Source: Branchiostoma floridae (lineage: Eukaryota > Chordata > Leptocardii > Amphioxiformes > Branchiostomatidae). From it: a DNA stretch of 64,000 bases. How positions within the stretch are numbered: position 1 is the first letter of the stretch; every line of letters starts with the position of its first letter. The position numbers and the translations under genes were made by a program. Of this stretch, positions 4,316-42,191 are shown piece by piece. The DNA is taken from contig NC_049993.1 in the NCBI RefSeq assembly GCF_000003815.2, forward strand, positions 10,348,134 through 10,412,133. The letters are read 5' to 3'. Below the pieces are notes generated by a model that saw only the letters and a program-made list of their open reading frames with translations, had not been told where the DNA came from and made no database searches.

Positions 4316-5567
4316 GGCTTGATTCCATTATCACGGAAAGATTGGTCGGAAAAAATGATATTTTTAAGAATAAGAGCAACACAATAGTGTATACAGAGTC
4401 TGTAAATACGTAAATCAATCCCTGCAGTTCACAGCCTTCTCATGATAGGCATGCCAAATGTCGTGACTTCCTCATGACTTCCTCATTACAAGACTAAACC
4501 ATTATCAGGGTCCCAATGACTGCATGATCCCCCTCCCCTCCTCCCCACTCGTCCATGCATCTTTAATGACGTGTTCCTGCCTTAAAAGCCGTCATTAAGC
4601 AGCTAATGTCCCCCTTCTTCTGTCACCTTTCCTGTTAGACAGGTGCTAACGTGGTTGTCTTTATTCCCAGTCCCTGTAATTGAAAGAGATCGCTTGGAAT
4701 CATTTTGTATTCTAGCATATAGTGGCGGATGCAGCTGCTTTGGCCAGGAAACAGCTGGAACGCTTCCAACAAAGTGCTAATCTCTGGAACACGGAAACGT
4801 TATGGAATAAAGTCCTGCGCTGTCCTATTAGAACACATACAAACGGGTGAGTACTATATAGGCTGAAAGTTTTAACTGGTGTTTTGTAAGTCTATAAAGG
4901 TCCCTTGTGCGAAGGAAGCTTTGTGTTCACCTTATCTATCGATGCACCGGCGGTTCGCTCATTAGCGCTCAAGTACTCTCAGAGAAGGGTCATTATCTAG
5001 GATAATCCCATATCAAAACTACAAGACAAAAGAATGGACAACAAGCTACGTATACAATACGGGTTATTATAGATTTAATACTTGTCACAGTACAAAAGCT
5101 CTCACGTAGAAACTTTACCTGCGTAACGTTATACGTAATTTGGTACAGTTCCTCACATTTGACATTGCACTCATTACAAGTACATTGTAGTTATACATTG
5201 ACCCACGAGCTCATTTCCTTCTAACGTTAGAAATCTCAATATCTCATTCTTTTATCTTGGCAAAGTACGAATACTTATGTGCAAATATCTACCAGGAGAC
5301 GGTGCCAAAATTTACAACTTATAAATGTGTTTAACACGTATAATTAAGCCATACAACAAAATACAGGCATAAATACGTTGGAAATACCCTTCAGAAACAC
5401 ATAGTAATAGATGCTACGTTATGTAGTTTGATAATCTAGTCAAAAGATGCATTTAATGCATACGTGTATAAATAACCGTGCTCTCGGAGCATAATACTAG
5501 GAGAACCACTGGAAGGATTCGCATATTCTTTAACATCTGTAGGCACCATAGGTGCTACCATTTGTGT

Positions 5568-6594
5568 CTAGTCTTGCCATGCATATTTATCATACATGAA
5601 ATATAAATGATGGTAGCTGTTTTCGACAGCAACCCTGAAGTCTCGCAGTACCAGGAAGTCCCGGATATGACGCAGGTACTCGGAGGGCGGGTCCTGCATA
5701 TCCGGTTCCATGACGTATGAGGGTCTGCCGGGATGTTGCACATCAAGCACGTCTATCTGCAGTGGTTGGTGGACAGAACATGAATTCAGTACGAATATGA
5801 TGTAACTGTTTATGTCATGGAAAGGAGAACTGATTTTGTTTTGAACGAGCCTTGATTTATACACTAAGATGAAATTATTCGTACTGACCGTGACATTGAT
5901 GGCTGTTATGAACGTTTGCAGTTGGTGCCGACAGGCGGTGATGTTGGCAGCGAGGCTGGAGTGGGTCCCCTCCTCCAGCACAGCGTCCCACTCCATCTCG
6001 TACAGGTACCGCCGGGCCACGTACATGCTGCTGTAGATGGCAGACAGGCGCGCTGCATCCTGGGGACAACATGGCGGAACTTTACTCTGGGCTGTTACAT
6101 GCTCAAGATAGAAGTGAATAACACTGTTTTCTTATCACCAGAACCGCCACCTAAGTACTCATCATCAGGCACACGGACGGAAACATAGGGCAGCTTGCAT
6201 TGGAGCACTCCGCTATTCTCCAAGCAGAGGTTGGATCGTGGGGGTAGTGTCCGTGGTTTAAAGCCGCTCGGAAGGGATCAGTTAGAAATCTCGGCCACTA
6301 CTATCCCCCGATCCCAAACCCTGCTTGAAGAATGGCTTGACAGTTCATAATAGACCTGAACTGTATTTATCGGTGTCATTCTTGTCTGTAGTGACGACTC
6401 AACATAACATAGCCCGTACTCTTTGAGACAGGAAGTTAGCTCACAGTGCATTACGTGCAGATCAAAATCAGATATGTGTTCTAAAAGTACTATCTATAAC
6501 TACAAATTACTAAATCTGGATCAAAATAACGTACGTCCATGTCGAAGAAACCATCGTTGTAAGGGCCAGGCAGCAGGAGACCGGGAATCTCGTC
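5568..6594 (-). pseudogene. duplicated terminal exons of the cytokine gene (partial copy or alternative 3' end)
   Basis: Three pieces lie on the minus strand: an exon-3 remnant at 6594-6535, an exon-4 copy at 6059-5889 and an exon-5 copy with stop at 5756-5568. The exon-4 copy differs by two residues (DAARLS for DEARLS, ANIT for ANLT), and the exon-5 copy encodes an identical 62-residue peptide. All splice sites of copies 4 and 5 are intact (CCCCAG, GTCAGT, CTGCAG). The exon-3 remnant lost its acceptor and its first 14 codons at the duplication breakpoint. There is no copy of exons 1-2, so it cannot make a secreted protein alone. Because all junctions are phase 0, exon 3 of the complete gene could splice into these exons instead of its own, giving a nearly identical product. 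Whether it is a dead copy or an alternative 3' end cannot be told from sequence. Confidence 0.75.
6215..6333. mobile_element. MITE with imperfect ~35-bp terminal inverted repeats (left copy)
   Basis: ATTCTCCAAGCAG at one end faces CTGCTTGAAGAAT at the other, and the inverted similarity continues inward through GGATCGTGGGGGTAGT against ACTATCCCCCGATCC. It has no coding capacity. It lies within the duplicated segment. Confidence 0.7.
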
Positions 6595-6596
6595 AC

Positions 6597-8879
6597 TGCT
6601 TGATTCCATTGTCACGGAAAAATGATGTTTTAAAGAATAAGAGCAACAAAATAGTGTATACATAAATCAATCCCTGCACTTCACAGCCTTCTCATGATAG
6701 GTATGCCAAATGTCGTGACTTCCTTGTGACTTCCTCATTACCCAGACTAAACCATTACCAGGGTCCCTATGGCTGCATGATCCCCCTCCCCCCTCCCCAC
6801 ACGGCCATGCATCTTTAATGACGTGTTCCTGCCTTTAAGAGCCGTCACTAAACAGCTAATGTCCCTCTTCTTCTGTCACCTTTCCTGTTAGACAGGTGCT
6901 TACGTGGTTGTCTTTAGTCCCAGTCCCTGTAATTGAAAGAGATCGCGTGGAATCGTTTTGTTTTCTAGCATATATTGGCGGATGCAGCTGCTATGGCCAG
7001 GAAACAGCTGAAACACTTCCAAGAAAGTGCTAATCTCTGGAACACGGAAACGTTATGAAATAAAGTCCTGCGCTGTCCTATTAGTACACATACAAACGGG
7101 TGTGTACTATATTAGGCTGAAAGTTTTAACTGGTGTTTTGTAAGTCTATAAAGGTCTCTTGTACGAAGGAAGCTTTGTGTTCACCTTATCTATCAATGCA
7201 CCGGCGGTTCGCTCATTAGCGCTCAAGTACTCTCAGAGAAGGGTCATTATCTAGGATAATCCCATATCAAAACTACAAGACAAAAGAATGGACAACAAGC
7301 CGCAATGCGGGTTATTATAGATTTAATACTTGCCACAGTACAAAAGCTCTCACGTAGAAACTTTACCTGTGTAACGTTATACGTAATTTGGTACAGTTCC
7401 TCACATTTGACATTGCACTCATTACAAGTACATTGTAGTTATACATTGACCCACGAGCTCATTTCCTTCTAACGTTAGAAATCTCAATATCTCATTCTTT
7501 TATCTTTGCAAAGTACGAATACTTATCTGCAAATATCTACCAGGAGACGGTGCCAAAATTCACAACTTATGAATGTGTTTAACACAAATGTGTATAATTA
7601 AGCCATACAACAAAATACAGGCATAAATACGTTGGAAATACCCTTCAGAAACACATAGTAATAGATGCTACGTTATGCAGTTTGATATTCTAGTCAAAAG
7701 ATGCATTTAATGCATACGTGTATAAATAACCGTGCTCTCGGAGCATAATACAAGGAGAATCACTGGAAGGATTCGCACATTCTTTAACATCTGTAGGCAC
7801 CATAGGTGCTACCATTTGTGTCTAGTCTTGCCATGCATATTTATCATACATGAAATATAAATGATGGTAGCTGTTTTCGACAGCAACCCTGAAGTCTCGC
7901 AGTACCAGGAAGTCCCGGATATGACGCAGGTACTCGGAGGGCGGGTCCTGCATATCCGGTTCCATGACGTAGGAGGGTCTGCCGGGATGTTGCACATCAA
8001 GCACGTCTATCTGCAGTGGTTGGTGGACAGAACATGAATTCAGTACGAATACGATGCAACTGTTTATGTTATAGAAAGGAGAACTGATTTTGTTTTGTTT
8101 TGGATTAACTCTTAGCCTTGAGTTATTCGCTAACTTAAAGATGAAATTATCCGTACTGACCGTGACATTGATGGCTGTTATGAACGTTTGCAGTTGATGC
8201 CGACAGGCGGTGAGGTTGGCAGCGAGGCTGGAGTGGGTCCCCTCCTCCAGCACAGCGTCCCACTCCATCTCGTACAGGTACCGCCGCGCCACGTACATGC
8301 TGCTGTAGATGGCGGACAGGCGCGCTTCATCCTGGGGACAACATGGCGGAACTTTACTCTGGGCTGTTACATGCTCAAGATAGAAGTGAATCGCACCCGC
8401 ACTGCTTTCTTATCACCAGAACCGCCACCTAAGTACTCATCATCAGGCACACGGACGAAAACATAGGGCAGCTTGCATTGGAGTACACCGCTATTCTCCA
8501 AGCAGAGGTTGGATCGTGGGGGTAGTGTCCGTGGTTTAAAGCCGCTCGGAATGGATCAGTTAGAAATCTCGGCCACTACTATCCCCCGATCCCAAAACCT
8601 GCTTGAAGAATAGCACTTGGCTTGACAGTTCATAATAGACCTGAACTGTATTTGTCGGTGTCATTCTTGTCTGTAGTGACGACTCAACATAACATAGGCC
8701 GTACCCTTTGAGACAGGAAGTTAGCTCACAGTGCATTACGTGCAGATCAAAATCAGATATGTGTTCTAAAAGTACTATCTATAACTACAAAGTACTAAAT
8801 CTGGATCAAAATAACGTACGTCCATGTCGAAGAAACCATCGTTGTATGGGCCAGGCAGCATGAGACCGGGAACCTCGTC
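6597..8879. repeat. right copy of the 2.28-kb tandem segmental duplication
   Basis: Head-to-tail partner of 4316-6594. It contains the functional-looking exons 4 and 5 of the cytokine gene and most of exon 3. A small inserted stretch in the intron between exons 4 and 5 (around 8100-8140) is replaced by different sequence in the left copy. Confidence 0.93.
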
Positions 8880-10434
8880 CCCTGGATGGCTGTAGTCAGG
8901 GTCGCCAAACCTGCTGATCTTCTGCAAGAGGAACAAACAGCCATATTTCGTTAGTTGATTTGATTTCCTTCACAAGCAACTGTGACCATCACATAGCACA
9001 GAGGTTTCCATCTAGGTACGAAACCAACTAAATATTACAAAGCAAAAATATATGATTCTAGGAATGTCAAAGTTGATTTCACAAGTTGAAAAAAAAAACC
9101 CAGTGAAATGTGAATTACTTACGAAATCCTCAAATGTGACGTTGACTTTGGTGAATAGTCGTATACTGATCTGTACGGCATTATCGAGAACTTCAACCTT
9201 GGACTGCTGAAACCCAGAGTCCGCATGCGCAGTAGACTTCACTGATTGGAGCTGCAAGGGTACCTGGGAAGTGACGTCATTCGACGTCATCACTGAAGAG
9301 GCTGTTGAGGATGGGAACGGTTCCGGAAGTGGAGTTGATGATATTTCCGGCAAGAAAAGCAGCATTGTAACGATGACGACGTTAAAAAGACTGCAACCTG
9401 TGAAAGGAATAGAAAAGAAAAAACAGTTGGTTACAAAAACAACTACCAGAGGGAAGAGAAGTCCAAACGTCAACACCAAATACAAACCAGGATCACTAAA
9501 ATCATTGAGATGCCATATCAGGAGTGGTTACAATAGTCCATTGATTTGATAAATCTATATCTATAAATAGCAAATTGAAGAGACTAACTCTGTTGGTGGC
9601 ATTTCAAAAAGCGTCGAAATAAGAACATATCGGCGAAGACCATTTCGATGTTTGAAAACTCCTCAACGTATCAAGATGAATTTCTGACAGAGAAAATTGT
9701 ATCTAATGCCGCTTAAGCTTAGACCCACCATTTATACACCATGCTCACGTCCCAAGCAGCTATATTTAGATCCATATTTCAGAGGTATAAGCCATGTGAA
9801 ACTATCAAACGTTCGTGGGCGGTAGACAGTCTCGATGCAATCGGAAACGATCGTAGGTAGTTTCGTTAATGATCGGTAATCGTCGTCAGATTTGCCGAAG
9901 GCTTCCAATGTTTGACAAGGAACAGTTTTAAAAGATAAGGACGTAGCTATATAGTTGCTCCGTAACCTCTTCCAAATTTGGTAATGAGGCTATAAGCCGC
10001 TATAAGTACTAGTAATGAAAGAGTTACCGCAATAGAAACAAAGAATACGTTTTGAAGTAAGCTCTAATGTGTGTAAAAATTCCCGTGGAAAAATATGCTT
10101 TTTTGACATGTTTGGTCAAATGGCACATCATGCTCTATTGGCTATGATCGTCCCTGCAAAACTTTATCTATAACCGTTTACTTGCTCCATTGGAAACAAT
10201 CGAAGGCAATATTTCCGGCGATACTGCCTGTCCTTTATCGGGTACAAATGACAAAGTCCACCGAAGATAACGTGTGACGTTGTATCTCTAGGCGTGAACA
10301 ATCATCTCAAGACTCAGGTATGCGGAAGGTATTCTTACAAGACATAGACATTAGAGAGTAAACGGCATTGCCTGAAGAAATCGTCTAACGGAAATTCTAA
10401 ATTAGACAAGCTTGTACTTACCGAACGTAGTCAT
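7822..10434 (-). CDS. secreted four-helix cytokine candidate, CNTF/CLCF1/IL-6 type
   Basis: Five exons on the minus strand: 10434-10422, 9397-9123, 8921-8820, 8331-8161, 8010-7822. All have consensus splice sites and matching phases, giving 249 residues. Residues 1-25 form a signal peptide (core NVVIVTMLLFLPEISS). About 40 Ser/Thr-rich residues follow, then likely helix A (68-95), a loop containing FGDPDYSHP, helices B (131-155) and C (160-187), a Pro-rich loop, and helix D (212-245). Helix D, EYLRHIRDFLVLRDF, lines up with the CLCF1/CNTF helix D that carries the FxxK receptor site; here it reads YxxH. The loop FGDPDYSHP resembles the post-helix-A loop of CLCF1. N-glycosylation sequons lie at N90, N169 and N185. 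A single Cys (173) remains in the mature chain. The four-codon first exon is typical of this family's genes. If correct, it would signal outside the cell through gp130-like receptors and JAK-STAT. The gene structure is firm; the family call is inference from pattern. Confidence 0.72.
8493..8611. mobile_element. MITE with imperfect terminal inverted repeats (right copy)
   Basis: Counterpart of the element at 6215-6333, at the same relative position in the other duplication copy. The insertion therefore preceded the duplication. It lies in the intron between exons 3 and 4 of the cytokine gene. Confidence 0.7.
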
Positions 10435-10523: not shown

Positions 10524-10530
10524 TTTTATA
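10524..10530 (-). promoter_or_regulatory. TATA box of the cytokine gene
   Basis: TATAAAA on the minus strand (context CCTATAAAATGG), 90 bases upstream of the start codon at 10434. It predicts transcription starting near 10495-10500 and a 5' UTR of about 60-65 bases. Its position and quality support the short first exon. Confidence 0.65.
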
Positions 10531-16200: not shown

Positions 16201-19200
16201 CAAGTATAACTATGAGCTCGAGCACAACACAAGTGCCTTATTACTGGTCCGTTTGAAGAAAATTTCCTACATAGGTTTCGTACGAAGTTTCCTACAAAAT
16301 TTCCTGACACTTCGACACAACTATCAGTTTGGGCAAAAACATATGCTAACAAGTATCAAACAGTGCGTGACAAACACATATTACAGTTGTAGCTAATGGC
16401 GAACTGACCTCCTCATTTTCCCGCTTGATCCATCCGTGTTCTTGGTGTGGCAAAACAGGGGGTCGGTAGTGACAGTCCTGTAGAGAGATTAACAATAACA
16501 GGCGTTCTTGAGACTGCCTTCGTTTACTCGATTGAAACATCGTGATAAGCGCAGTTATGTGGGTATCGTCTCTATCTGAAAAGGCTGAAATGTATTCTGT
16601 AAGAAATCCTCGGCTGTAAGATGACTCGTCTACGTACCACACATGGTGTTCTCGTGCCCATCAGTCCACCGCTGTTGTCAACACCATAACTGGTGACGTA
16701 ACCACGCCTGCCAGCGTACTCCCATATCCACTCATTTACCCTCTTGGCAAATCTGTGACAAATTAGATGATTGACAGATCATTTGTACGACAAAGACAAC
16801 ATCGTATTTCTGCGCAGATGACACTGATAGACAATTTCATTGACTATTTTCTTTCCGTGTCTTCATAACTTAATGTTCCTTTTCGGATGATGAAAGTGTA
16901 TGTCAAGGTTCAGTTGTTAAGTGATAAAGGCACGAAAAGGTGATGTGTGATAAATTCCTTGAGAATGTAGTCTTTATTGCAATATTTGTGGTTACGCCTG
17001 TTAGCTACCCTTGCTGGATTCTTACACTCTGTTCCGGACCTTCTCCTCGTCCACCTCGTCGTACAGCTGCCCTGCGTACAGCGGGGTCAAGTTCATCACG
17101 GTCGAACCGGAAATGGCGTTCAGTCGGTTGAAGAGAAAAGCATGATGGGAGAGTGGTCCGCCATTTTGCTCTGTAGATGTTTGGAACAACAGAATAGTAA
17201 AAGAAAGCTGGGGTTAACGTTTTATACGTTTTTTACGATCTTTAAATCACACATTTTGAGATTAACAACGTCTAAGTAGGCCTTTCTTTTATCTTAAGTT
17301 GCAATATTGCCAATATTCAGACCTTCTGAGGCGCCATTGTACAGTTTCCTGAGAAAGGCGGACGTTTTAGGGAGCCCGCACGGCCGGTGGAAGTGAGCAC
17401 GTGACACAGAATCCAGACTGATGGACAGTACAGACAGCGGCTTCCACGATGTCTCCTTCGTCTTGGTCTCCAGAAACTTCTCACGCTGGGACTCGTTTAT
17501 GTCGTCATCCGTCAGGAACTGCGTGTGATAGTTGTGTTGGTCATTTCCGCTGGGATAAAAGATAATAAAACAGACATAAAAGAAAGTTTGAGACAGATTC
17601 TATGAGCAGTGACACTTCTAAATTGTCTCAACTGCGTCAGAATCTTAATCGAAGGATCACAGACCTCAAACAATTTCAGAAATAAAATCCATTTTTGCAT
17701 ACTTTTGGTCCTTGCAGACGACATCGGCATAGCTTGTTTCCATGGCAACTGAGGTGGGTCCTTCATAGTAGTTCCACTGGGGATACTCCACGTACTGTCC
17801 ACTGGGGAGGGGGGCCTCATGTTCTCGCCTCTCCAGAAAGTTAACACGGAAAGTCCCTGGACAGTTCACGTGTATTGTTCTGTGAGGAAATTAAAAACAG
17901 TGTAATTGATTAAATTTTGTATAATTAAGTAAAGATGTTGTGTCTATTGTTTGATTAGCTCGAAAACCTAACCATCACTCAAGAAAAGAGAGGCCATGAG
18001 AGAAGTTTAAGAACGGTAACCAGAGAAACCAGCCCACCTGTTAATGAGTGTTGAGAATGTGGCGGTCATGTTACATCTCCACGTCACGTTTCGCCAACAC
18101 AGCTCATCCGGGGCCTTCAGGTCAGGTATGGCGCATGCGCTGTCGCTCTCAGGACCAACATCTGTTGAAAATAGACTGTCCTCTGCAGACTTGAGTTGAA
18201 ATAGAATATCGGCGTTGTTATTTTTCCAGATGCGAGTTTCCTCGTGTTTTTGCCAACTCTTCGTCGTTCCTTGGAAACTGGAGTCCTCAGAGACCGTTCC
18301 CTCTAGACTTGATGTGGGCTGTTTGTGCCAACTCCTGTGGTTCATAGGACGTCTGCCGCGCAGCCCCAGTGCCAAACCGTCATACAGTCTGCGGACAGGT
18401 GCTTCCTCCGTGGAATGAACTTCTGCAATATATGGATTGAAAAAGATGAAGGAAAAGATGGAAAGATTCAGCATACTTCAACACAAGGTTTCATCATGAA
18501 AATGAATGTATGATTTATTTTTGCCACAGAATATCATATGTAACGTTATGTCAAGATAAATTTTGAACAAAAATGCTTCACAAAATTTCTCTGCCGCCGT
18601 AGCTAAACGATATGTTGGAAGCTCGCAGGTCAGTTTGTCAAGGAATGGTTGCTACTGACGCCAAATAGCGAGGTTTGTTGTCTGTAAGGTGTTAATGTAT
18701 AAAACAATGTTCTTATCGACTTGTGAAATACGCATTTCCTAGTAACCCTGCCTTTGATTTCTAAGTGCCACACACGTTCAAACTTCCCACTTTCTTGAGA
18801 AAGAATTCTGCCTTCCTTGCTGTATAACCACCCTTCCTTGCAACCTTCAGCGTCTTTGTTTTACATTACTGACTAAACGCACCAGAGCCTTCTCGGCCCA
18901 CACATGTATCAATAGCACGGTTTGCCTTTCCTGACGTGCAGTATATCTCTGCGGACATAAACCAAGAGTAGGCGATTAGAGCACGCCAGAGAAATGCCAA
19001 GGAACCGCTTGCCAAAAACAACAGGGAACTGCTCTGATCGTTTCTTGAGCCGCCCCCACTCACTGAACCTGCCAGGACAGTTTACCAGCGCATGCGCTCT
19101 ACCTGCCGAATCTCTCGACATTTGCCATATGTCGGCAGGGGTCGCTTCTCCACGTCAAACGATCTAACAGAGTGCCATCTCTCACGTGTGTTTAGTGCTG

Positions 19201-40796: not shown

Positions 40797-42191
40797 CTAG
40801 CTATCAAAACAGAGTGATATGTTGTCTGTATCAGCATAACCATTTTGTGTAGGAAGACTCTTGTTATTTACTGCACTATCAGGGTTGTAGGAAACCCCAT
40901 AATGCTCCTCTAGATAGTCCAACACTGCTGCTGTACTAGTCAGTGCATTGAAGACTCTCTTCTCAGATTTGGGAGTGACTCGTTCAAACATGTACATCAG
41001 GTGGTGATGGAAGCATGTAAAATGAGTTCCCAGCTTCAGAGAAATGTCCACCCAGTCCTGTACGCACTGTAATGGGGTCTGGTCATACCCCGCGTACATT
41101 CCCGGATTCTGGAGTATACCACGTGCTGCCATCACTCCGTCAACTCCCGTTAAACTCTGTACACGTCTCACATCCTCTAAGTTCTTAATGTCGCCATTTG
41201 CAATGACAGGAATACTCAGGCTCTGTTTTATGAGAGAAATAGCTTCAGTGTTGACAGGCTCCCCTCTCTGTGTGGGGGTTCTACCATGTACAGCTATCCA
41301 GGATACACCTGCATGTTCTGCCTTCTGACACATATCTACTGTTTCTCTCAAGTCTTTGTGAAGCCTGATTTTAATGGAAACTGAGAAATCTTTGTCAGAA
41401 ACTCTAGCTCTAGCCTGTCGGACCATGTCAGAGACGAGCTCGGGATTTTTCAGAAGACATGATCCGTACCCCTCCGCCATGGCCCACCGCTGCGGACAGC
41501 CGCAGTTCAGATCCACTCCGTCAGAGTACGGCGCAACGATCTCCGCAGCGTCAGCTAATGTCACACCATCTCTCGCTGCAAACTGGACCACAAGCGGCCT
41601 GTCTGCGGAGTTCGTGGTGAACTCGCTGTCTCGGGCTTTCAGAGACTTCACGAAAGATTCAGCGATGATCATAGGAGAGAAGGCGAGATCGCAGTTGTAG
41701 CGGCGCACGAGAGCGCGAAACGGTAACTTGGAGTAACGTACCATGGGCGCGCACACGTGCACGACTTTCCCCGGCTGGAACAGTTCAACAACAGGCACAC
41801 GTCCTGTCGTCGGAGGAAGGTCGTTTGGTACCTGAGCCATACTGGAGGAGAAAAAAAACCATACGGTTACTTCAGGAGGTGCCTCGACCACGTTAAACAG
41901 CCTCATTACCCACACTTTGGGTACAACTGTACCTACTGGCTGCAAAATACACCCGATATTATTATTTACGAAAACTCGATAATTTTGTTAGGACGCGCGC
42001 CGCAGCATCTAGCTAAAAATATACAGACATAGCGAAAGCTTTCATTCACAGACCTTACTACTCCATGTAGAAATGTAGTCTCCGCCTGAAACACGATGCT
42101 GTGCTGGTATAGATCAAGCTAGTAGCTTTAAATCTCATTGATTTGTGCAAGGCAAAACCACTCACGCCGCATAGTGACGAAGGTCGGCCAT
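40797..42191 (-). CDS. DUS4L: tRNA-dihydrouridine synthase DUS4L (U20a/20b type)
   Basis: Reduces uridine to dihydrouridine in the D loop of tRNAs using FMN and NAD(P)H. Two minus-strand exons: 42191-42166 (ATG with Kozak-like AAGATGGCC, donor GTGAGT) and 41841-40797. The 324-base intron ends in a long T-rich tract plus CAG. The join rebuilds one Ala codon in frame, giving 356 residues, against about 317 in human DUS4L. The TIM barrel has APMVRYSKLPFR near the start, the active-site motif LNCGCPQ (catalytic Cys near 124) followed by GYGSCLL, then IKIRLH, VHGRTPTQRG, ANGDI and GVMAARGILQNP. An open frame runs 35 codons further upstream of MAQVPND, but that is intron read-through. Translation could instead start at MAQVPND (41840) if exon 1 is non-coding. 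The gene is divergent from HEATR1. Confidence 0.95.

Follow-up and report, generated by a model that had tools for sequence, protein, structure and literature searches.

The long-chain class I helical cytokines IL-6 and GH have five coding exons, with intron phases 1-0-0-0 and with helix A, the AB loop, helices B plus C and helix D distributed by exon, and in GH and prolactin (PRL) an exon junction lies at the end of helix A. Among invertebrates, the insect Unpaired (Upd) proteins are ligands of a gp130-like receptor. Here we describe a gene on the minus strand of a 64-kb stretch of the genome of the amphioxus Branchiostoma floridae (contig C15, positions 10348134-10412133; this whole stretch is called the window below). 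We consider it likely that this window gene, which looks functional, encodes a long-chain class I helical cytokine that is secreted and N-glycosylated, and that it belongs to a small amphioxus family whose closest relative among vertebrate proteins, by sequence, is CLCF1, a nerve and immune factor, followed by IL-27p28 and CNTF.

For CNTFR-alpha, the critical residues of CLCF1 are W94, R197 and D201, with a bond from D201 to W94, and its FxxK site for LIFR is made up of F178 and K181 (PMC10022904). Its partner CRLF1 has an immunoglobulin (Ig) domain and is secreted without a membrane part (PMC8780587, PMC10022904). IL-6-family cytokines are stated to be vertebrate-only in a 2026 survey (PMC13203501). 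In amphioxus, a 2022 review (PMC9010856) mentions "several genes related to type-I helical cytokines" in a passage that gives no detail. The amphioxus protein GHl is described in the same review as a type I cytokine of 208 residues (see also PMC5376476) nearest GH; it was published as a GH-like protein that binds GHRl and has activity in zebrafish, and it is also handled as GH-like in PMC9049855. GHRl is presented as a receptor that consists of an ectodomain only and has an Ig domain at its N-terminus; a predicted gene adjoining it, which codes for membrane and cytoplasmic parts, may supply the missing half (PMC9010856). No amphioxus ligand of CLCF1, CNTF or IL-6 type appeared in the titles and abstract openings that we surveyed, most subscription papers lying outside that survey.

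The window gene extends from position 10434 down to 7822 and has an open frame of 249 residues in five exons, all four introns being GT-AG with phases 1-0-0-0. The first coding exon (10422..10434, 13 nt) reads ATG ACT ACG TTC G and ends in a phase-1 donor; the second (9123..9397, 275 nt, phase-0 end) encodes a presumed signal peptide, a Ser/Thr-rich lead and the putative helix A; the third (8820..8921, 102 nt, phase 0) the AB loop (KISRFGDPDYSHPG...FFDMD); the fourth (8161..8331, 171 nt, phase 0) the putative helices B and C, in a low-confidence model; and the fifth (7822..8010, 189 nt including the stop) the CD loop and the putative helix D. As motif matches only, there is a TATAAA on the same strand 96 nt upstream of the ATG (10525..10530) and an ATTAAA downstream of the gene (7711). 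The first-pass annotation, made from the letters of the window, had claimed an intact five-exon gene for 249 residues, and the splice sites, the open frame and paralogs with the same exon order bear it out. Its count of three sequons (N90, N169 and N185) and one free cysteine is also correct: Cys 6 lies inside the presumed signal peptide, and Cys 173 would be the only cysteine of the mature chain. The four helices that it had predicted are a more mixed case. The protein has four stretches free of Pro and Gly, of 34-38 residues each, with Pro/Gly-containing loops between them, which fits four helices, but a hydrophobic-moment test added no support, the value of helix A being equalled by 89 of 2000 shuffles and those of helices B, C and D by 1499, 724 and 1925 of 2000. 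In an AlphaFold model of the contiguous frame exon 4-intron-exon 5 only, helices were placed, at low confidence, where B, C and D are expected, and stretches 2-20, 33-57 and 132-166 of that piece were among the helical ones.

A six-frame search of the genome (513,431,437 bases in 431 contigs) with the window protein was carried out, and the loci found were then read for exons. Beyond the gene's own locus and a tandem copy beside it, there were matching exons at three places on contig C4. These are three intact genes, A (L021, 208 residues), B (L022, 206) and C (L023, 208), with start codons placed in exon 2 by our choice and with identities to the window gene of 33, 31 and 24%, respectively; the window gene has the longer lead. 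Because these three genes, away from the window, have exons 2-5 in unchanged order and with phase-0 junctions, the window gene is more than a product of chance. Its exon scheme agrees with the one outlined above for long-chain class I cytokines, and the C4 paralogs agree with it for exons 2-5. A hydrophobic N-terminus, judged by eye only, is found in all four proteins (206-249 residues). A profile built from A, B and C detected the window gene with an E value of 2.9e-19 (z 51.8 over 60 shuffles), and gene C used as a genome query returned the same five loci and then, with only the best candidates scored, one match at E 3.26. Judging from these searches, the amphioxus family is made up of the window gene and its truncated tandem copy on C15 and the three genes on C4.

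Compared together, the four intact members come closest to CLCF1. Their profile had three matches at E<=10 among 177,635 PDB sequences (hmmsearch), and all three are IL-6-family ligands: CLCF1 came first (E 0.2, profile positions 57-209 aligned to chain positions 34-182), followed by two chains of the IL-27 alpha subunit (p28; E 1.7 and 2.1). None of the three is significant alone, and no GH or PRL chain was found at that threshold. We also used human helical cytokines as references, 20 for hmmsearch (19 scored) and 11 for hhalign, the latter with signal peptides removed where they had been included. By hmmsearch the top of the 19 was CLCF1 (z 5.7), IL27A (4.5), GH1 (3.2), CNTF (2.9) and PRL (2.7), and for the A/B/C profile alone the values were IL27A 3.8, CLCF1 3.2, CNTF 2.5 and GH1 1.7. 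By hhalign CLCF1 was the first of 11 (probability 90.8, z 15.3), with a score of 45.9 that none of 120 global and none of 120 local shuffles reached (shuffle mean 12.6; reversed sequence 11.4). It was followed by IL27A (z 9.1, in a match that spans 68 columns only), CNTF (6.1), GH1 (4.1, a score reached by 3 of 120 local shuffles), EPO (3.7), IL6 (2.7), CSF3 (2.4), PRL (2.0) and IL11 (1.9). The best affinity over the whole fold was not to GH or PRL. Without the window gene, the A/B/C profile gave by hhalign 77 for CLCF1 and CNTF together, 27 for IL27A and 1.0 for GH; a pooled comparison ("all_long"), in which families and signal peptides are mixed, was left out of the evidence. When the chain was compared by parts (15 targets, 40 shuffles), exons 3-5, i.e., the AB loop and helices B to D, were nearest to CLCF1 with z 17.4; PRL had z 2.0 and GH1 was outside the best 8 of the 15 targets.

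The match to CLCF1 is collinear from the AB loop to helix D, at 18-20% identity over 148 aligned residues. The stretch EYLRHIRDFLVLRDF, proposed in the first-pass annotation as helix D, aligns with helix D of CLCF1, and FGDPDYSHP, proposed as the loop after helix A, aligns with the corresponding CLCF1 loop NEPDFNPP. In Pfam, gene A had a sole match, to PRF (PF06875; E 0.0091, residues 129-208, 15.9 bits), a family that contains cardiotrophin-like proteins, and in gene B the same family was the best of four weak matches (E 0.051, residues 173-205, 13.5 bits). The Pfam, PDB and human-cytokine comparisons agree on a CLCF1-type affinity of the family, and the best affinity of the four-member profile among helical cytokines is with the CNTF/CLCF1 group.

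A number of results weigh against this reading. Taken alone, the window protein matched no Pfam and no NCBIfam family at E<=10 (hmmscan), CNTF, LIF_OSM and IL6, the families in which the first-pass annotation had proposed to look, included; by phmmer its only PDB match was one unrelated protease. There was likewise no significant match to another secreted family in these scans. The same search with A alone and with C alone gave phage or bacterial proteins as top matches. The Pfam cut-off of PRF, 22 bits, was missed by both A and B, and neither C nor the window gene had a PRF match; a search of the genome with the PRF profile found nothing, a result that does not show absence. By hmmsearch the window gene alone was nearest to CTF1 (z 2.3), with CLCF1 at 2.0 and PRL at 1.8, and by hhalign it tied CLCF1 with PRL (z 3.5 each). 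Exon 2, with helix A, was nearest to GH1 (z 5.8). CTF1, a close kin of CLCF1, showed no affinity to the four-member profile (hhalign z 0.3), and LIF behaved likewise (0.4). When the window gene was left out of the profile, the hhalign probability of CLCF1 was only 19.5. Both the CTF1 result and the fact that the CLCF1 score depends on the window gene lower our confidence. The AlphaFold model mentioned above is not confident (mean predicted local distance difference test, pLDDT, of 40). The genomic neighbourhood did not help either: SETD1, RAD9 and BCL7 are markers of the human CLCF1/CTF1 neighbourhood, and our preset expectation that they would lie on C4 or C15 failed for both informative markers, SETD1 and RAD9 being on C11 and BCL7 on the small contig C76. 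Of the original assignment to a CNTF/CLCF1/IL-6 type there remains the affinity of the family to CLCF1 and its kin by profile, while the window gene by itself matches no cytokine family.

The receptor-site residues separate the window gene from its paralogs. In the alignment W94, R197 and D201 of CLCF1 are all kept in the three C4 paralogs and are replaced in the window gene by F126, N233 and H237, so that site 1 resembles that of CLCF1 in the C4 genes and is altered in the window gene. The loss of all three again counts against a CLCF1-type ligand, as does the FxxK site. Its first position is F in A, Y in B, S in C and Y in the window gene, aromatic in three of four, but the lysine is found in no member (the ends read Y..H in the window gene, F..S in A, Y..S in B and S..A in C), so the full site claimed in the first-pass annotation does not hold. 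Given the missing lysine, the lost triad and the unreached Pfam cut-off, we do not place the window gene in CLCF1/CNTF proper; its five coding exons also differ from the count of three exons given for human CLCF1 (PMC8780587). If the gene works as proposed, the signal peptide would be removed, the mature chain would fold as an up-up-down-down four-helix bundle and the ligand would bring together class I cytokine receptors signalling through JAK-STAT. The C4 members, in which the triad is kept, probably have a CNTFR/CRLF1-like chain as their site-1 receptor, and the window gene, having lost it, probably engages a different chain or works through sites 2 and 3 only.

The relation to the published amphioxus hormone could be approached through the primers for ghl and gh/prllbp given in PMC5376476. 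The two ghl primers face one another on gene C, the first fitting exon 4 at 19 of 25 positions and the second exon 5 at 18 of 23; the best fits in 60 shuffles were 17 and 15, in A and B 16 and 15, and in the 64-kb window 17 and 16. The first of them encodes LFLDEVL, by eye the same letters as in gene C. The receptor primers fit the locus L041 (C15:19049500-19059400) at 24 of 26 and 22 of 24 positions, against at most 18 and 17 in 40 shuffles. From these fits, GHl is very probably the ortholog of gene C, which like A has its 208 residues, and GHRl the gene at L041. The kind of protein described here is then very probably not wholly new, GHl belonging to the same family, and the first-pass annotation overstated the novelty, all the more as genes of type-I helical cytokines in amphioxus had already been mentioned (PMC9010856). 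The window gene differs from the C4 genes in its sequence (24-33% identity), its lead and its site 1. The ectodomain of GHRl, joined from its exons at L041, has an Ig domain, D1 and D2 with WSEFS. Its nearest relative is the prolactin receptor (E 1.7e-32, over the homology region only), followed by CRLF1 (E 2.3e-25, Ig included) and gp130 (E 9.5e-17); because of this first rank, the receptor evidence favours a GH/PRL relationship and is one more point against a CLCF1-type ligand. By analogy, the Ig domain of GHRl matches a feature of CRLF1, and so would its secretion without a membrane part, should that be correct. The published GH assignment of GHl, which differs from the profile result of the amphioxus family, deserves review.

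If that assignment is right, the family would be a cephalochordate GH/prolactin-like one, with GHl as published and the window gene as a diverged GH-like paralog. We regard this as unlikely, although the GH-like description, GHRl binding and zebrafish activity of GHl (PMC9010856) speak for it, as do the primers that tie GHl to gene C, the third rank of GH1 among the 19 scored references, the GH1-like exon 2, whole-chain z values of 4.1 for GH1 and 2.0 for PRL, and the lead of the prolactin receptor over CRLF1 in the homology region of GHRl. The resemblance to GH1 is in helix A, and in exons 3-5 there is little of it: from the AB loop to helix D the comparison is CLCF1 z 17.4 against PRL z 2.0, with GH1 not in the best 8 of 15. 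The PDB matches contain neither GH nor PRL, GHRl has an N-terminal Ig domain, its alignment with CRLF1 spans both this domain and the homology region, and the CLCF1 site-1 triad is kept in all C4 paralogs. A stem position, in which the ancestral long-chain cytokine predates the split of GH/PRL from CLCF1/CNTF and the amphioxus genes are co-orthologous to both, is possible but rather doubtful. The combination of a GH-like helix A with a CLCF1-like remainder would be expected from it, and so would a GHRl that joins an Ig domain to a PRLR-like homology region; the exon scheme, common to GH, IL-6 and others, is also compatible, and it is the higher profile score of CLCF1 over GH for exons 3-5 that fits it poorly. 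A further reading, which we consider somewhat less likely than not, makes the family the cephalochordate set of CLCF1/CNTF-type ligands, GHl of Hatschek's pit included, with GHRl as a CRLF1-like partner and not a GH-binding protein, and with the window gene as an undescribed member lacking the alpha-receptor site. If true, CLCF1-type signalling would predate the vertebrates and the published amphioxus "GH axis" would need renaming. A CLCF1-type family in a cephalochordate would put the origin of this ligand branch before vertebrates, it would allow the assembly of ligand and receptor to be tested in an animal that has not undergone the genome duplications of vertebrates, and it would change how the GHl/GHRl hormone axis is read.

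That the family consists of unrelated secreted helical proteins, resembling CLCF1 by chance, is very improbable. The window gene alone has no significant match, the best PDB match (E 0.2) is not significant by itself and the fold of the contiguous piece is not confident (pLDDT 40), but all three PDB matches of the profile belong to a single family of ligands, the shuffled and reversed controls fail, two paralogs agree independently in Pfam, and the paralog GHl has been classed as a type I cytokine (PMC9010856). Nor do we think it at all likely that the window gene is a decaying copy that no longer gives a working ligand, as its lost triad, its lead longer than in the C4 genes and the adjoining truncated tandem copy could suggest. 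Its 249 codons are open, its splice sites are canonical and it has TATA and poly-A signal motifs. Homology in the tandem copy begins inside exon 3, at 6594, and continues to 5300 or beyond, the query having ended there; the duplication comprises 1,332 aligned columns, with an identity of 94.4% and 37 gap positions. On the minus strand it contains only the 3' part of exon 3 (6535..6594, homology ending inside the exon), exon 4 (5889..6059, five differences in 171 nt) and exon 5 (5568..5756, a single, synonymous difference in 189 nt). Exons 4 and 5 together thus differ from those of the window gene at 6 of 360 positions, in contrast to the identity and gaps of the duplication as a whole. Exons 1 and 2 of the copy were not found by the six-frame search of the genome or by local comparison. 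The copy may have arisen by partial duplication, or it may be an assembly artefact or merged haplotype of a heterozygous animal. A family cytokine that is still functional-looking remains our preferred reading of the window gene.

Receptors of the class concerned are present in the genome. Four of six matches to PF09067 are class I receptor D1 exons with the paired-cysteine C-x-W pattern, three of them on C7 (at 19.44, 20.65 and 20.70 Mb) and the fourth, that of GHRl, on C15; the other two (L030 and L031) have no recognisable receptor exon, and neither do the PF09240 matches L024 and L025 on either strand. Fuller class I receptor genes could be read at L041, L040 and L044. L040 (C7:19435900-19445800, plus strand) has a leptin-receptor-type Ig exon (PF06328, 38.5 against a cut-off of 28.8) and then an EpoR-type D1 exon just under its cut-off (26.7 against 27.3). 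L044 (C7:20682000-20691900, minus strand), downstream of the D1 exon at C7:20695611, shows YQVRYWSEW, FWSDC, several FN3 domains and a C-x-C-x-W type pattern; its joined D2 had fibronectin as the two best PDB matches and CRLF1 as the third. The L044 exons and the D1 exon at 20.70 Mb may possibly form one long gp130-like gene. The near-identical D1 exons L026 (C7:20695611) and L027 (C7:20654588), both on the minus strand and about 41 kb apart, suggest a recent receptor duplication or an assembly duplicate. In L041 (minus strand, about 4880-7100) a minisatellite lies in the intron that follows the exon for the first half of the GHRl homology domain; judged by eye, the terminal part of this exon, together with its splice donor, seems to recur many times as the unit.

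Intron 3 of the window gene contains an element of about 120 bases (about 8490-8620), with copies on other contigs at 70-76% identity; three of the copy loci match in either orientation, a pattern expected of a short palindromic transposable element. Elsewhere in the window, and always on the minus strand, an exon of a DUF229 protein (PF02995, E 7.8e-06) lies at 17294-17599, three frames neighbouring it having no Pfam match, and an open frame of 396 residues at 40798-41987 carries a dihydrouridine synthase domain (PF01207, E 1.6e-70). An exon with most of a paired-box (PAX) domain (PF00292, E 2.6e-39) is located at 2631-2971 and is separated by some 2.6 kb from exon 5 of the truncated tandem copy.

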